Of a stretch of DNA of 64,000 nt, positions 9,794 through 15,765 are shown piece by piece. Within the stretch, counting starts at the first letter, position 1. The number at the start of each line of letters is the position of its first letter. The stretch is from assembly GCF_039880525.1 (NCBI RefSeq), contig NZ_CP156989.1, forward strand, positions 2,170,001 to 2,234,000, given 5' to 3'. This DNA is from Agrococcus sp. ProA11. GTDB taxonomy: Bacteria; Actinomycetota; Actinomycetes; Actinomycetales; Microbacteriaceae. The notes beneath the pieces are model-generated. The model did no database searches. It was not told the DNA's origin and saw only the letters and a program-made list of their open reading frames with translations. Both the position numbers and the translations under genes were made by a program.

Positions 9794-11617
9794 CTAAACC
9801 AGCGACTCCCGCCACGCGCGGTGCAGCGATGCGAACTTCCCGCCCTCGGCGATCAGCTCCTCCGGGCTGCCGTCCTCGATGATGCGCCCGTGCTCCATCA
9901 CCAGCACCCGGTCGGCGATCGCGACGGTCGATAGCCGGTGCGCGATGATGATCGCCGTGCGGTCGGCCAGCAGCGTTGTCAAGCCGGTCTGCACGAGCCG
10001 CTCCGACGGGATGTCGAGCGAGGCGGTCGCCTCGTCCAGGATCAGCACGCGCGGGTCGGCGAGGAATGCCCGGGCGAACGAGAGCAGCTGTCGCTGGCCG
10101 GCGCTGACGCGTCCGCCGCGCTTGGCGACATCCGTGTCGTAGCCATCCGGCAGCGCCGTGATGAACTCGTGCGCGCCCACCGCGCGGGCCGCCTGCTCGA
10201 TGTCCTCGGCGCTCGCCCCCGGGCGACCGAGCGCGATGTTGTCGGCGACCGTGCCGGAGAAGAGATAGGCCTCCTGCGTCACCATCACGACCGCGCGGCG
10301 CAGGTCGTCGTTCGCCAGCTCGCGCAGGTCGACGCCGTCGAGCCGCACCGATCCGCGGGTCGGGTCGTAGAAGCGCGAGACGAGCTTGGCCAGCGTCGAC
10401 TTGCCGGCCCCCGTGGTGCCCACGAGCGCGATCGTCTGACCGGAGGGGATGTGCAGCTCGAAGTCGGGCAGCACGACCTTGCCGGTGCCGTCCGCGCCGG
10501 TCTCGTACGCGAACTCGACGCGATCGAAGTCGATCTGGCCGCGCGACGTCGGCAGCGCCTTCGGCTCACTCGGCTCCTGCACGGTCGGCTCCTCCTCCAG
10601 CACGCCCGAGATCTTCTCGAGTGCCGCCGAGGCGGCCTGGTAGCCGTTGAAGAACATGCCGATGCCCTGGATGGGCTGGAAGAAGTTGCGGGCGTACAGC
10701 GCGATGCCGAGCAGCGCACCGATCTCGAGCGAGCCCTCGACGACGCGCAGGCCGCCCACCAGGATGAGCGTCGCGAGCGTGACCGCGCCGATCGCCATGA
10801 TGCCCGGCTCGTAGATGCCGAAGATGTTGATGGTGCGGAAGTTCGCGTCGCGGTAGTCGTCCACGCGCTGATCGAACTCGCGCTGGTTCTTGGGCTCCGT
10901 GCGGAACGCCTTCACCGCGCGGATGCCCGTCATCGTCTCCACGAAGTGCACGATCATGCGCGCGCTCGTGGTGCGGGTCTCGCGGAACAGCTTCGTCGAG
11001 CGCACCTGGAACCAGCGCGTGAGCAGGATCGCGGGGATGAGCGCGATGCCGACGATGAGGCCCGACAGCGGATCGAGGATCACCATGGCCACCGCGGTGA
11101 AGCCCATGAACAGCACGCCGCGCACCAGCTCGTTCAGCCCCTGGTCGAGCAGGTCGCGGATCGACTCGAGGTCGCTCGTCTGCCGCGCGATGATGCGACC
11201 GGAGGTGTAGCTCTCGTGGAACTCCAGGCTGAGGCGCTGCGAGTGCGAGAACAGTCGTCGGCGCAGGTCGAACAGCACCGTCTGGCTGATGCGGGCGACG
11301 CTCACCGTGTAGAGGAACATCAGCACGCCGGAGACGATCGCGGCGATGATGTAGATGACGGTGGCGCCCCACAGCGGCATCCAGTCGGCATCATCGACGA
11401 TCGACGAGAGGCCGTGGTCGATGCCGAAGGCGATGATCATGGGCCCGGCGATGCCGGCGGCGACCGAGATCACCACGAGGATCATCGTCAGCACCACGCG
11501 ACGGATGTGCGGCCGCAGCAGCGAGCCGAGCAGGCGCCGCGAGCGGGCGCGGATCAGCTTCGACTCCTCCTTGGTGTAGTCGGAGCGGTCTTCGCCCTGC
11601 ACTCCCTGGACACTCAT
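9794..11617 (-). CDS. ABC exporter, second subunit (TMD-NBD fusion)
   Basis: A 607-residue half-transporter of the type IV (MDR/lipid) exporter class. It has six predicted membrane helices over residues 35 to about 330, then a nucleotide-binding domain with Walker [12 protein letters not shown] (about 395-405), Walker B VLILDE (about 525-530) with the catalytic Glu, and switch His in IIAHRLST (about 559). The signature is RVSAGQ, a deviation from LSGGQ. Its start overlaps the stop of the partner subunit by 4 nt (ATGA), so the two are translationally coupled and form a heterodimer. The exported substrate is not evident; drugs or lipids are typical. Confidence 0.92.
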
Positions 11618-13509
11618 CGGGACACCTCCTCGGAGGACTGCGGATCGAGGTCGTCGAGCTGCTCGAGGTCGATCACCTGCATCGAGCCGGTGACGGCCTC
11701 GATGCTCTGGCGGTCGCGCTCGGTCTCCTCGAGGCTCGAGATCACGAAGCGGTAGTGGTCGTTGCGGGCGAGCAGCTCGGTGTGGGTGCCGACGTCGTCG
11801 ATCTTCCCGTCGCGCATCAGCGCAACGCGGTCGGCGAGCTGCACGGTGCTGGGGCGATGCGCCACGATGAGCGCCGTCGTGGTCTCCAGCACGCTGCGGA
11901 GCGCCTCCTCGACGAGCGCCTCGGTCTCGACATCCAGTGCCGAGAGCGGATCGTCGAGCACCAGCACCGCGGGCGCCGCGGCGACCGCGCGGGCGAGCGC
12001 GAGCCGCTGCCGCTGGCCGCCCGAGAGCGACAGACCCTCCTCGCCGATCTCGGTGTCCAGCCCCTTGGGCAGCTCGCGCGCGAAGCTGGCCTGCGCGATC
12101 GCGAGGGCGCGGTCGAGGGCGGCCTCGGATGCCTCGGGGGCACCCATGAGCACGTTGTCGCGCACCGAGGCCGAGAACAGCGTGGCATCCTCGAACGCCA
12201 TCGCCACGTGCGTGCGCAGCTCGGCGAGGGTGAGGTCGCGCACGTCGACGCCGTCGAGCAGCACGCGGCCGCCCGTGACGTCGTAGAGGCGGGTCGGCAG
12301 CGCGGTGAGCGTCGTCTTGCCGGAGCCGGTGATGCCGATGAGCGCCATCGTCTCGCCGGGCTGCAGCTCGAGCGTCGCACCGTCGACCAGGTCGCGCTCG
12401 TGCTCCTGCGCGTCCTGGTAGCGGAAGTGCACATCCTCGAACACCAGCGACCCCTTGGCGTCGGCGATCGTCCGCGGGTTCGCGGGGTCGACGATGGTGT
12501 TCTCGGAGTCGGTGATCTCGTGGAAGCGGCGCGAGGCGTTCGACGCGTCGATGAGGAAGGCGAAGAGGAAGCCGATGGATTCGATCGGCCAGTTGAGCAC
12601 CATCGCGACCGCGAAGAACGCGGCGAGCGTGCCGACCGAGAGCTGGCCGCTCGCGGCGAGGCCGACGCCGACGAACAGGCAGACGGCGTAGGAGATGTAG
12701 GGCACGATCGTGAGCCACATCCACAGGTAGCCGTCCATGCGCGCCTTGTCGATCTCGGTCTCGCGCAGCCGCGTCGCCTGCGCGGTGAAGCCTTCGAGCG
12801 CGTGCCGGTCGCGGCCGAACGCCTTCAGCACGCGGATGCCGTGGATCGACTGCTCGACCGTGGTCGCGAGGTCGCCGGCCTGATCCTGCGCCGAGCGCGA
12901 GACCAGGTGGTAGCGCCGCTCGAAGCGCAGCGCGACGACGGCGATCGGCAGCGAGAGCACCACGAAGATGCTGGCGAGCACCGGGCTCCACACGAAGAGG
13001 ATCACGATGCCGACCACGAGCGTGATCGAGTTGACCACGAGCAGCGGGGCGCCGAAGGCCAGGAAGCGGCGGAGCTGGCCGAGATCCTGCACGGCACGGC
13101 TGAGCAGCTGACCCGACTGCCAGCGGTCGTGGAACGCGACCGGCAGCGCCTGCAGTTGCCGATAGAGCGCGCTGCGCATCGCCGCCTCGACCCTCGTCGA
13201 CGGCAGCGTGACGAGGAATCGGCGCAGGAAGACGAACAGCGCCTCGCCGAGGGCGAGCACGAGGATCAACAGCGCGACCGGCCACACGGCGGCGGCGTTG
13301 TTCTCGGCGAGCGGCCCGTCGACGAGCGCGCGGATGACCATTGGGGTCGCGAGGCTCAGCAGGGCGGACAGCAGCGCCGCGAGCGTGCCGAGGAGCAGTC
13401 GGGGCAGCACGGGGCGGATGTAGGGCAGCAGCCGGCCGAGCGCGCGCAGGTGGCCGGTCGGTGCGGCCTGTGCTGCAGGTGCTGCATCCGGGGTGGACGT
13501 CGAAGACAT
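11614..13509 (-). CDS. ABC exporter, first subunit (TMD-NBD fusion)
   Basis: A 631-residue half-transporter. It has six membrane helices in residues 30 to about 315, Walker [11 protein letters not shown] (about 392-401), canonical signature LSGGQ (about 489-493), Walker B VLVLDD (about 517-522) and switch His in IVAHRPST. The catalytic Glu after Walker B is Asp here, while the partner carries a degenerate signature (SAGQ). Walker A/B of this subunit and the signature of the partner face each other, so the pair has one consensus and one degenerate ATP site, the pattern of TM287/288 and BmrCD. An acidic extension of about 35 residues follows the NBD. Upstream lies a leader ORF with hairpins at 13525-13727. 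Confidence 0.92.
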
Positions 13510-13522
13510 GGGGGTCCTTCAA

Positions 13523-13574
13523 TGCCGCTGACGTCGTGCATCAGCGGGTGGAGCGGCGCGACCGGTGGGTCGCG
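13523..13574 (-). promoter_or_regulatory. Hairpins in the leader of the ABC exporter mRNA
   Basis: In the transcript, CGCGACC (13568-13574 side) pairs with GGTCGCG (13557-13563 side) around a 4-nt loop. It is followed by a CCGCTGA/TCAGCGG hairpin (arms 13541-13547 and 13525-13531) placed directly before the ribosome binding site (AAGGAC) of the first exporter gene. The CAGCGGCA of that arm (13523-13530) is also complementary to TGCCGCTG inside the upstream leader ORF (13691-13698), giving a possible alternative pairing. This layout resembles ribosome-controlled attenuation; no U-tract is visible. Confidence 0.5.
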
Positions 13575-13655
13575 GATGATGGTGCTGCGTCGATGTTCGG
13601 CTGTGCCACCGACACCGGCAGTGCGAGCGACGCTCGCGGCGGGCCCGTGCTGCTT

Positions 13656-13727
13656 CTAGGCTCCGACGCGTCCGAAGCGGACGAGGAGACCAGCGGCAGC
13701 GATCGGGGTGGTCGTCGTCGTGCGCAT
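13656..13727 (-). CDS. 23-residue leader peptide upstream of the ABC exporter
   Basis: A short ORF on the exporter transcript encodes MRTTTTTPIAAAG followed by LLVRFGRVGA. It has one of the best ribosome binding sites in the window (GGAGGAG, 6 nt before the ATG) and is preceded by a near-consensus promoter. It ends 146 nt before the exporter start codon. In Bacillus subtilis the exporter genes bmrCD are controlled by the small leader ORF bmrB through ribosome-mediated attenuation; an analogous drug-sensing role is inferred here. A run of five Thr codons near the N-terminus could be a pausing site. It is too short for composition statistics, so it may also be fortuitous. Confidence 0.6.
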   Translation of the reverse strand: MRTTTTTPIAAAGLLVRFGRVGA

Positions 13728-13774
13728 GGCATTCTCCTCCGTCGCCCGCTCCCCTGTGGCGCGGTCAGCCTTCG

Positions 13775-13804
13775 AGTCTAAGCAGGTCGGCGCGACGGTG
13801 TCCA
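13775..13804 (-). promoter_or_regulatory. Promoter of the leader peptide-ABC exporter transcript
   Basis: Reverse-strand -35 TGGACA (13799-13804) and -10 TAGACT (13775-13780) are separated by 18 bp, close to the housekeeping sigma consensus. Transcription should begin near 13768, giving a leader of about 260 nt before the exporter start at 13509. Confidence 0.65.
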
Positions 13805-13855
13805 GCCCCTGATCGAGTTATCTCGATCGGATGTCGCCGCACCGCGCCCGCCGGC

Positions 13856-13912
13856 CCCGAGCGGTGCGGTTGCGCCCGACTGGGGGGGGGGGCGCGCCGG
13901 CACCGCTCGGGC
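13856..13912. repeat. Dispersed hairpin repeat, copy 2, with an 11-G run
   Basis: CCGAGCGGTGC (13857-13867) and GCACCGCTCGG (13900-13910) are perfect inverted arms around a centre that contains eleven consecutive G residues (13882-13892). Together with the promoter and leader to its left it fills the 468-bp space between the ABC exporter and purH. It may terminate transcription around the purH 3' end. The G run is a likely site of length variation or sequencing error. Confidence 0.65.
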
Positions 13913-13977
13913 GCAAGGGCACCGCTCGGCGGCGGTGCGGGGGCGGGGGTGGAGCCGGGCGGGGGTGGGCGCGAGGG

Positions 13978-15765
13978 TCAGTGCGCGAAGTGGCGCTCGC
14001 CCGTGAAGTACATCGTGATGCCGGCGGCGTTCGCGGCCGCGATGACCTCCTCGTCGCGCACCGAGCCGCCGGGCTGCACGACCGCGGCGACGCCCGCGTC
14101 CAGCAGCACCTGCAGTCCGTCGGCGAACGGGAAGAACGCGTCGGATGCCGCCACCGATCCCGCTGCCCGATCGCCCGCCCGCGCGACGGCGAGGCCGCAC
14201 GAGTCGACGCGGTTCACCTGGCCCATGCCGACCCCGACGGATGCACCGCCGGCGGCGAGCAGGATGCCGTTCGACTTCACCGACCGCACGGCCCGCCAGG
14301 CGAACTCCAGGTCGGTGAGCACCGCATCCGACACGTGCGAGCCCGACACGCGGCGCCACGTGTGCGACGAGAAGCCCTCGAAGGTGTCGGGCTGCTGCAC
14401 GAGCACGCCGCCCGAGACCTGCCGCAGCTCGGAGCCCTCGCGCGCGTAGTCGGCGGGCAGGCGCAGCAGGCGGATGTTCTTCTTGGCCGAGAGCAGCTCG
14501 AGCGCTTCGGGCTCGAAGTCGGGGGCGACGACGACCTCGGTGAAGATGTCCTTCACGGTCTCGGCCATCGCGCGAGTGACGGTGCGGTTCGCCGCGATGA
14601 CGCCGCCGAAGGCCGACACCGGGTCGCACGCGTGCGCACGCTCGTGCGCGGACGCGATCGGATCGGCGGCACGGGGATCGGCGATGGCGATGCCGCAGGG
14701 GTTCGCGTGCTTGATGATCGCGACGGCCGGCTCGGTGAAGTCGTAGGCGGCACGCAGCGCGGCGTCGGCATCGACGTAGTTGTTGAACGACATTGCCTTG
14801 CCGTGCAGCAGCTCGGCCTGCGTGAGGCCGCGCCCGCCCGGAAGACCGAACAGGCCCGCCTGCTGGTGGCTGTTCTCGCCGTACCGCAGTCCCTGCACGA
14901 GGGTCGCGGCGCCGACCGCGCGGAGCAGGCCGGTGGCGTTCGAGGTGTCGGCGGCAGTCGGCGCGGATGCCGGTGACGCCGCTGCCGCGCCGGCTGCGGC
15001 CGGGGCCGACGTCGCACGCGCGGGCGCCGCCGCGGCGGGCTCGACGAGCTGGGGCGTGGCCGCTCCCGCGGCATCCGCGACCGGCGCCTGCTCGGCCGAG
15101 GCGGGGGCCGTCGCGGGCGCGGCGGCGGGTGCCTCATCCACCGGCTCGCCCGCGAACCACCGGGCGACCGCGCGATCGTAGGCGGCAGTGTGGGCGAAGG
15201 CGTCGCGCGCGAGCGCTCGGCGCTGCATCAGGGTGAGGCCCTTGGATGCCGCCCGCTCGATCAGCGAATAGACCCGCGGATCGGTGACGATCGCGACGTT
15301 CGCGTGGTTCTTGGCGGATGCGCGCACCATCGCCGGACCACCGATGTCGATCTGCTCGACCACGTCGGCTTCCGCCGCGCCGGAGCGCACCGTCTCCACG
15401 AAGGGGTAGAGGTTCACGACCACGAGCTCGAACGGGGCGATGCCGAGCGAGGCCAGCTGCTCCTCGTGGTGCTCGAGCCGCAGGTCGGCGAGCAGGCCCG
15501 CGTGGATCGCCGGATGCAGCGTCTTCACCCGCCCGTCGAGCGCCTCCTGGAACCCCGTGACCGCTGCGACCTCCGTGACCGGCAGGCCGGCATTCGCCAG
15601 CATCTTCGCTGTCGAGCCGGTCGAGACGAGCTCGACGCCGGCCGCGGCGAGCGCCGTGCCGAGCTCGACGATGCCGGTCTTGTCGCTCACCGACAGCAGT
15701 GCCCGCTGGAAGGGCACCGCGTCGCGCTCGCGGTAGAGGCTCGGGTCGTGCTGGGGTCCGCTCAC
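13978..15765 (-). CDS. purH: Bifunctional AICAR transformylase / IMP cyclohydrolase
   Basis: PurH catalyses the last two steps of IMP synthesis, formylation of AICAR and ring closure. The 595-residue protein opens with [19 protein letters not shown] and STGSTAKML (MGS-like cyclohydrolase domain, to about residue 195). The transformylase domain begins near residue 270 ([14 protein letters not shown]) and includes IIKHANPCG and [11 protein letters not shown]. Between them is an Ala/Pro-rich insert of about 70 residues (roughly 197-265) that standard PurH proteins of about 520 residues lack. The GTG start at 15765 overlaps the purN stop (GTGA), so the two are coupled. Confidence 0.95.

Follow-up and report, generated by a model that had tools for sequence, protein, structure and literature searches.

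A conserved leader reading frame and RNA hairpins as a candidate attenuator upstream of an ABC exporter gene pair in Agrococcus

We analysed a 64,000-nucleotide (nt) stretch of DNA, referred to here as the window, that is part of a 2.67-Mb genome assembled as one contig, and focused on the region upstream of a gene pair for an ATP-binding cassette (ABC) exporter. We propose that the 5′ leader of the exporter mRNA is probably a cis-acting attenuator that senses the behaviour of ribosomes on a short open reading frame (ORF). That this leader ORF regulates the exporter appears likely, and ribosome-targeting drugs are, by a narrow preference, the trigger that we would expect by analogy with the leaders bmrB and toiL. 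The parts of the proposal that the sequence supports are a conserved promoter upstream of the ORF; an ORF with a strong Shine-Dalgarno (SD) sequence, which most of the family orthologues examined have retained despite changes in its peptide; and, in 17 Agrococcus genomes, three stems that follow the ORF, the last of which lies just before the weaker SD of the exporter (Table 1). Because relatives with up to 89% exporter identity (among the best 80 of 297 confirmed loci, which were the ones kept) are named Agrococcus, we call the organism Agrococcus (Microbacteriaceae).

Table 1. Features of the exporter locus (positions in the window).
Feature	Position	Strand	Basis or remarks
Promoter TGGACA-N18-TAGACT	13775..13804	minus	Sequence scan and conservation
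Leader SD GGAGGAGA and spacer	13728..13740 (SD 13740-13733)	minus	GGAG invariant in 17 Agrococcus sequences
Leader ORF, 23 codons, MRTTTTTPIAAAGLLVRFGRVGA, stop TAG	13656..13727	minus	ORF call, ATG start, orthologue comparison
CTCCTCG inside the leader ORF	13682..13688	minus	Predicted self-occluding hairpin, in which CTCC could pair with the leader SD
Hairpin P1, GCGAGC-GTC-GCTCGC	13623..13637	minus	Five of six pairs never vary
TGTCGGTGGC, possible (weak) alternative partner of the P3 5′ arm	13605..13614	minus	Duplex scores
Hairpin P2, GCGACC-CACC-GGTCGC	13558..13573	minus	Two pairs with changes on both sides
Hairpin P3, CCGCTGATG-CACGA-CGTCAGCGG	13525..13547	minus	Three pairs with changes on both sides
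Exporter SD GAAGGA and start ATG	13507..13520 (SD 13520-13515, ATG 13509-13507)	minus	Sequence
ABC exporter subunit 1	11614..13509	minus	631 amino acids (aa), Walker motif with Asp replacing the catalytic Glu, signature LSGGQ
ABC exporter subunit 2	9794..11617	minus	607 aa, Walker motif, non-canonical signature VSAGQ

The leader ORF and its promoter

An initial annotation of this DNA had described a 23-codon ORF with a strong ribosome binding site (RBS) behind a near-consensus promoter, and both descriptions proved accurate. The leader SD outranks that of the exporter in strength, and the promoter is the sole sigma70-like site in a scan of positions 13450-13980, where 50 shuffled sequences gave an average of 0.0 sites.

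The same annotation had made its reading depend on conservation of the ORF, and the ORF is indeed retained both in close relatives and in other genera. Orthologous loci (numbered with an L) comprised 24 from Agrococcus, of which 23 were used after L031 was dropped, and 69 from elsewhere (L045-L113), of which 65 were used after removal of those with under 300 nt of upstream sequence (L055, L060, L097 and L103); six of the 69 records (L045, L082, L095, L100, L103 and L113) are not named Microbacteriaceae, and five of these are among the 65. A leader was scored when an ORF of 10-45 codons that starts with ATG, and whose SD matches in 5 or more bases (or, more strictly, 6 or more), was present 300-60 nt upstream. 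At the threshold of 5 (6) bases, such an ORF was found in 20 (18) of 23 Agrococcus orthologues and 53 (39) of 65 others. The background was 3 (1) of 120 genes that have an upstream gap, taken from 400 kb of the same genome, and 2% (0.15%) of 1300 Markov-resampled upstream sequences. Eleven of 13 further loci of the same family, from a class-wide sample in which species of the first set may recur, also carry the ORF and SD; a match in L146 resembles the end of the neighbouring purH and was left uncounted. Outside the family, where 76 genomes were matched and those with loci were read, the combination was found in none of 16 orthologues.

The leader peptide varies by lineage. It reads MSTTTTxPIAAA in Agrococcus, with MLTAPALTPVVGVAR and similar sequences in its A. 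jejuensis-type members, MDQIDAPVAPAAAPSVAARPGRRS in one Microbacterium group, MSxAIVTTKPAVL in another, and MIVRIAFTAAALPG in Leucobacter. By a coarse search, 16 of the 24 Agrococcus genomes (L009-L032) have Thr-rich leaders, and L021 brought the number to 17; most of these 17 leaders begin with MSTTT or MRTTTTT. The Thr run, which had been put forward as the sensing element, cannot serve as a general one: it is an Agrococcus trait that is as a rule missing from the leaders of other groups, including the Microbacterium type (MDQIDAPVAP...). The ratio of non-synonymous to synonymous differences (pN/pS) of the leader was 1.24 in Agrococcus (codons 1-14: pS 0.18, pN 0.16) and 0.73 in the Microbacterium type. 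With such ratios and a peptide that differs between genera, one fixed drug-arrest peptide is disfavoured. Motifs of the +X+ type are associated with macrolides, and a by-eye look at the leaders found no consistent placement of them. Because the SD and start are present, the frame is open, and the gaps among Agrococcus leaders are multiples of three, the leader ORF is very likely translated.

From the position of the -10 element, transcription would start near 13768. The -10 and the block that follows it are kept in Agrococcus relatives and are recognisable in other genera. This block, GGARGGCTG (window 13766-13780), comes straight after the -10, and the pattern GGA[AG][GA]GCT is present in 38 of the 65 non-Agrococcus upstream regions, compared with 0.023 expected per 420 nt. 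The block may well be promoter sequence, which is not proven. As a regulatory RNA element or operator it was dropped: similar blocks stand before gene starts at all six of the matches inspected in the same genome, although the matches were not clearly enriched over those of the reversed pattern (20 versus 17).

The block also persists in orthologues in which no strong-SD leader ORF was detected, with exact copies in L030, L080, L092, L102 and L113 and near-matches in L029, L095, L100 and L104; in L030 and L102 it appears by eye to open a hairpin. A comparable -10 with a GGACGGCTG block is found in L164 (from position 1500), 71 nt ahead of a gene whose protein resembles, again by eye, an ABC-F ATPase.

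Structure and composition of the leader RNA

Two hairpins had been listed in the initial annotation, with arms CGCGACC/GGTCGCG (P2, 13574-13557) and CCGCTGA/TCAGCGG (P3), and their sequences and coordinates are correct. The last of them had been said to touch the exporter RBS. P3, which can be extended to 9 pairs including one U-G, is adjacent to the exporter SD without overlapping it, as it ends 4 nt ahead. An additional hairpin, P1, is the least variable of the three. Because the predicted fold of the 301-nt leader RNA is only a little better than those of its shuffled versions (z -1.82; 4 of 100 shuffles were as good), folding by itself would not make the case; the excess over chance lies in conservation, that of the ORF with its SD among orthologues and that of the stems within the genus.

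Leader alignments were built from the 17 of 24 Agrococcus genomes that have this leader type. An unguided RNAalifold consensus of these sequences, at 60% mean column identity, recovered P1, P2 and P3, and in the 16 distinct rows the named structure pairs in 93.7% of cells, compared with 25-49% for slid control structures. Changes on both sides of a pair were found in 5 pairs (shuffle mean 3.0; reached by 21 of 500 shuffles) and 20 cells (shuffle mean 6.3; reached by 0 of 500), and the measure of further pair types was not exceptional (68 of 500 shuffles reached the real value); these controls are not probabilities, as the sequences are related and the structure was derived from them. The compensatory changes expected of conserved stems are thus present in P2 and P3 and absent from P1, which hardly varies. 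In the alignment used here, P1 is near-invariant (alignment A1, columns 33-51; window 13637-13623), which suggests more than base pairing, such as a second partner or a protein.

When the genome itself was searched with R1, a covariance model of P1-P3, the exporter site was recovered with an E-value (E) of 5e-27, followed by two sites with E 0.06 and 0.19. No Rfam family reached its gathering score, the one chance match being on the other strand (E 1.4). De novo covariation over all column pairs (17 and 20 sequences) was rejected as too noisy, with many top pairs that are not base pairs.

Within the leader ORF, the RNA may fold back on its own SD. The predicted probability that the leader SD is unpaired was 0.27 against 0.46 in a synonymous-codon null for the 17 Agrococcus leaders (nominal p 0.003) and 0.23 against 0.45 for 25 Microbacterium-type leaders (nominal p 7e-7); the Microbacterium sets comprised 19 or 20 loci when defined by leader type and 25 when defined by peptide pattern, as in this test. 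The SD was less occluded than in most null sequences in 3 of the 17 (L012, L015 and L022) and 2 of the 25 (L057 and L078). All five pairs between the SD and the CCUCC able to pair with it are standard or G-U in every cell that holds letters. Because this CCUCC lies in a different codon phase in the Agrococcus and the Microbacterium-type leaders, it looks as if it were kept as RNA.

No terminator-like site was found in 13450-13980, and TTTT is present in the inter-ORF stretch of 0 of 17 Agrococcus leaders and 1 of 53 others (54 were found and 53 counted). The inter-ORF RNA is C-rich and G-poor, the composition that Rho prefers, with a skew of 0.24 in the 17 Agrococcus leaders and 0.28 in 50 others, compared with 0.01 in 109 upstream regions of the same genome. 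The skew is -0.09 and -0.03 upstream of the same promoters and falls to 0.09 and 0.06 deeper in the exporter gene; it averaged 0.14 in 11 hand-picked loci without a leader and 0.01 in 16 loci outside the family. An involvement of Rho-dependent termination is a suggestion rather than a finding, and a tentative one.

Proposed mechanism and alternative explanations

In the mechanism that we propose, ribosomes would translate the leader ORF, and initiation would be limited by the leader RNA folding back on its own SD. During normal growth, exporter expression would be kept down by P3 beside the RBS and by transcription that ends early in the C-rich region, possibly through Rho, and a disturbed transit of ribosomes on the leader, most likely caused by ribosome-targeting antibiotics, would raise it. 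Because the leader peptide is not conserved, a general impairment of translation is more likely to be the input than one peptide-specific arrest; action by termination (perhaps Rho-dependent) or by RBS occlusion is our best reading. A bolder version, which we offer with considerable doubt, would make this a family-wide leader class of the Microbacteriaceae in which the peptide can vary freely, the retained element being an ORF that folds, as RNA, on its own SD. Such a leader would be a self-limiting translation meter, with ribosome traffic setting exporter expression, probably through Rho, in answer to any ribosome-targeting drug and not just to a single class.

Several results weigh against an attenuator of this kind. 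In equilibrium folding, the mean accessibility of the exporter SD was flat whether the leader ribosome was absent, early, late or at the stop codon, with mean opening energies of 5.3-5.8 kcal/mol in the 17 Agrococcus and 5.1-5.6 kcal/mol in 19 Microbacterium-type leaders, and differences of a few kcal/mol in single species (e.g. L022 and L028). Because accessibility is flat and no conserved pairing of the leader with P1, P2, P3 or the exporter SD was found, the proposal does not account for the way in which a leader ribosome would affect the exporter. The ORF is lacking by the SD-of-5 criterion in 3 of 23 Agrococcus and 12 of 65 other orthologues, and pN/pS gave no signal of protein-level purifying selection, the same DNA read in shifted frames yielding 0.96 and 0.70, and 1.27 and 0.71. 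The occlusion of the leader SD showed no clear difference from the null in 29 other leaders (0.27 versus 0.32, p 0.07), and no covariation was seen in the self-hairpin. Moreover, the null sequences have lower folding energies than the real leaders (-48.9 versus -42.6 and -42.9 versus -36.8 kcal/mol) and are therefore not composition-matched, and kinship among the sequences means that the p-values overstate their independence. The C-skew also extends over the leader ORF (0.24 and 0.21) and into the exporter, over its initial 120 nt (0.23 and 0.31), so that it may be compositional. Finally, a search with model R1 in 41 loci, of which 35 came from the 69 non-Agrococcus loci and 6 were Agrococcus loci that lack this leader type, gave nothing convincing: the best E was 0.06, and two weak matches, in L091 (E 0.08) and L024 (E 0.17), lie upstream of the exporter.

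Stable stems and translated leaders can protect mRNA, and the ORF and stems could form a constitutive 5′ untranslated region (UTR) that affects only mRNA stability or basal exporter translation and senses nothing. The failure of the accessibility and pairing models to reveal a switch is in keeping with such a UTR, which we nevertheless consider unlikely, as it poorly explains why a strong-SD ORF is retained in most of the orthologues examined despite peptide turnover and why the leader occludes its own SD in two groups.

Alternatively, stalling on the leader could release an arm for pairing with P3 (or P2), which would expose the exporter RBS, as in the translational attenuation of erm and cat genes. 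P3 is a supported stem next to the exporter SD, and the 8-nt complementarity that the initial annotation had noted between the leader and a hairpin arm is present in the window, where TGCCGCTG (13698-13691, in the leader) matches CAGCGGCA (13530-13523; shuffle P 0.065). As a conserved feature this pairing was rejected, being found in 1 of 17 Agrococcus leaders. Across these 17 sequences, pairing of the leader ORF with the arms of P1, P2 and P3 was near chance (mean z -0.57 to +0.57, with -0.57 for the 3′ arm of P3), single sequences pairing well with the P3 3′ arm (L014, z -3.0; L019, z -2.5), and everything upstream of P3, leader included, paired with the exporter SD at a mean z of 0.04. The segment TGTCGGTGGC and its variants could pair with the 5′ arm of P3 (mean z -1.22) and form the best duplex, of 8 pairs, in 6 of 17 sequences (L009, L011, L013, L014, L015 and L026), but the segment lies about 40 nt past the leader stop, beyond the reach of a leader ribosome, and has no counterpart in L016-L020 and L022. 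Because the 8-nt match is rare, leader-arm pairing is near chance and the accessibility of the exporter SD is flat in both groups, the competing-hairpin switch of the initial annotation is not shown, and we judge it improbable.

The ORF might instead encode a peptide secreted by the exporter, as a precursor or signal, rather than a regulator. A small ORF beside an ABC exporter that encodes a variable peptide, with pN/pS near 1, would suit such a role, but the signs of constraint at the RNA level, the orthologues without the ORF and the stems between ORF and exporter make it very improbable. Least credible of all is an amino-acid attenuator of the kind known from the E. coli thr leader, in which the Thr-codon run that opens most of the Agrococcus leaders would sense charged tRNA-Thr, as Microbacterium-type leaders have no Thr run, other genera differ again and the downstream genes are exporters, not threonine genes.

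The exporter locus and related leader systems

The two subunit genes overlap by 4 nt. At the site of LDDPLSALD in subunit 1, LDEATASLD is found in subunit 2, and the signature is LSGGQ in the former versus VSAGQ in the latter. Complementary degenerate motifs of this kind are the usual mark of a heterodimer with one degenerate ATP site, and the genes look like a heterodimeric exporter pair, possibly of the multidrug kind. Both proteins match exporter families and solved multidrug exporters, and the structures matched include P-glycoprotein, Sav1866 and TM_0288; subunit 2 additionally matches 5mkk_A, which we take to be TmrA of TmrAB, and YheH, presumably the BmrD protein. Among the 25 families listed for each, neither protein reached a curated NCBIfam cut-off.

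The gene from window position 13978 onward is, judging by its protein sequence, presumably purH, and a C-terminal sequence resembling that of this upstream gene also precedes the exporter in L029, L030 and L146. Between purH and the leader promoter lies a GC-rich inverted-repeat stretch (13842-13946) with at least 25 further matches of 73-87% identity among the 40 candidates scored of 140; they lie on both strands, and one is the inverted copy of the stretch itself. The matches represent about 16 distinct other places, and the stretch resembles a dispersed element of the repetitive extragenic palindromic (REP) type.

Known translational attenuators such as those of ermC and cat-86 consist of a leader ORF and then a stem near the RBS of the resistance gene. 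The Agrococcus leader has this order of elements and differs in that no exclusive alternative pairing was found; in ermC, an alternative stem-loop formed on stalling exposes the RBS (PMC4191407). In Bacillus subtilis, bmrB is a translated short ORF upstream of the multidrug ABC exporter pair bmrCD that exerts ribosome-mediated control, with a terminator inside its coding sequence, a predicted anti-terminator, and induction shown for drugs that target the 50S subunit (PMC4191407). A short ORF upstream of an ABC exporter gene pair is common to both systems, leader translation and control being proposed for ours; unlike in bmrB, no U-tract terminator was found here and the ORF ends before the stems.

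The toiL-topAI system of Escherichia coli likewise combines an upstream ORF (uORF) with a long 5′ region; it senses several drug classes, Rho termination has been shown with a Rho utilization (rut) site in the 5′ region, and, in the proposal of its authors, the gene is induced wherever in the uORF a ribosome stalls (PMC12121999). For the Agrococcus leader Rho is a suggestion only. The toiL sequence itself base-pairs with the RBS of topAI, a pairing for which no conserved equivalent was found in Agrococcus leaders, and topAI belongs to a toxin-antitoxin system whereas the Agrococcus genes encode an exporter. In Streptococcus pneumoniae, patAB is an ABC multidrug exporter pair with a leader attenuator that has a Rho-independent terminator (PMC4319486). 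Our locus resembles it in having ABC exporter genes with an upstream leader, through which control is proposed, and differs in that no Rho-independent terminator was found; a leader ORF is not mentioned in the patAB abstract. The terms attenuation and uORF occur in papers on ABCF resistance genes such as lmrC (PMC8546547, PMC10201436); these are also actinobacterial resistance-related genes, which code for ABCF translation factors and not for membrane exporters.

We found no description of leader-ORF control of exporters in Microbacteriaceae in the open-access literature, a scope that leaves out most subscription journals. The general kind of regulation, a leader ORF controlling an ABC drug-exporter pair, is already known from Bacillus bmrCD, and it is the setting that we did not find in print. 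If the proposal is true, leader-ORF control of exporters, here with no intrinsic terminator found, would extend to an actinobacterial family in which the leader peptide turns over while the ORF stays.

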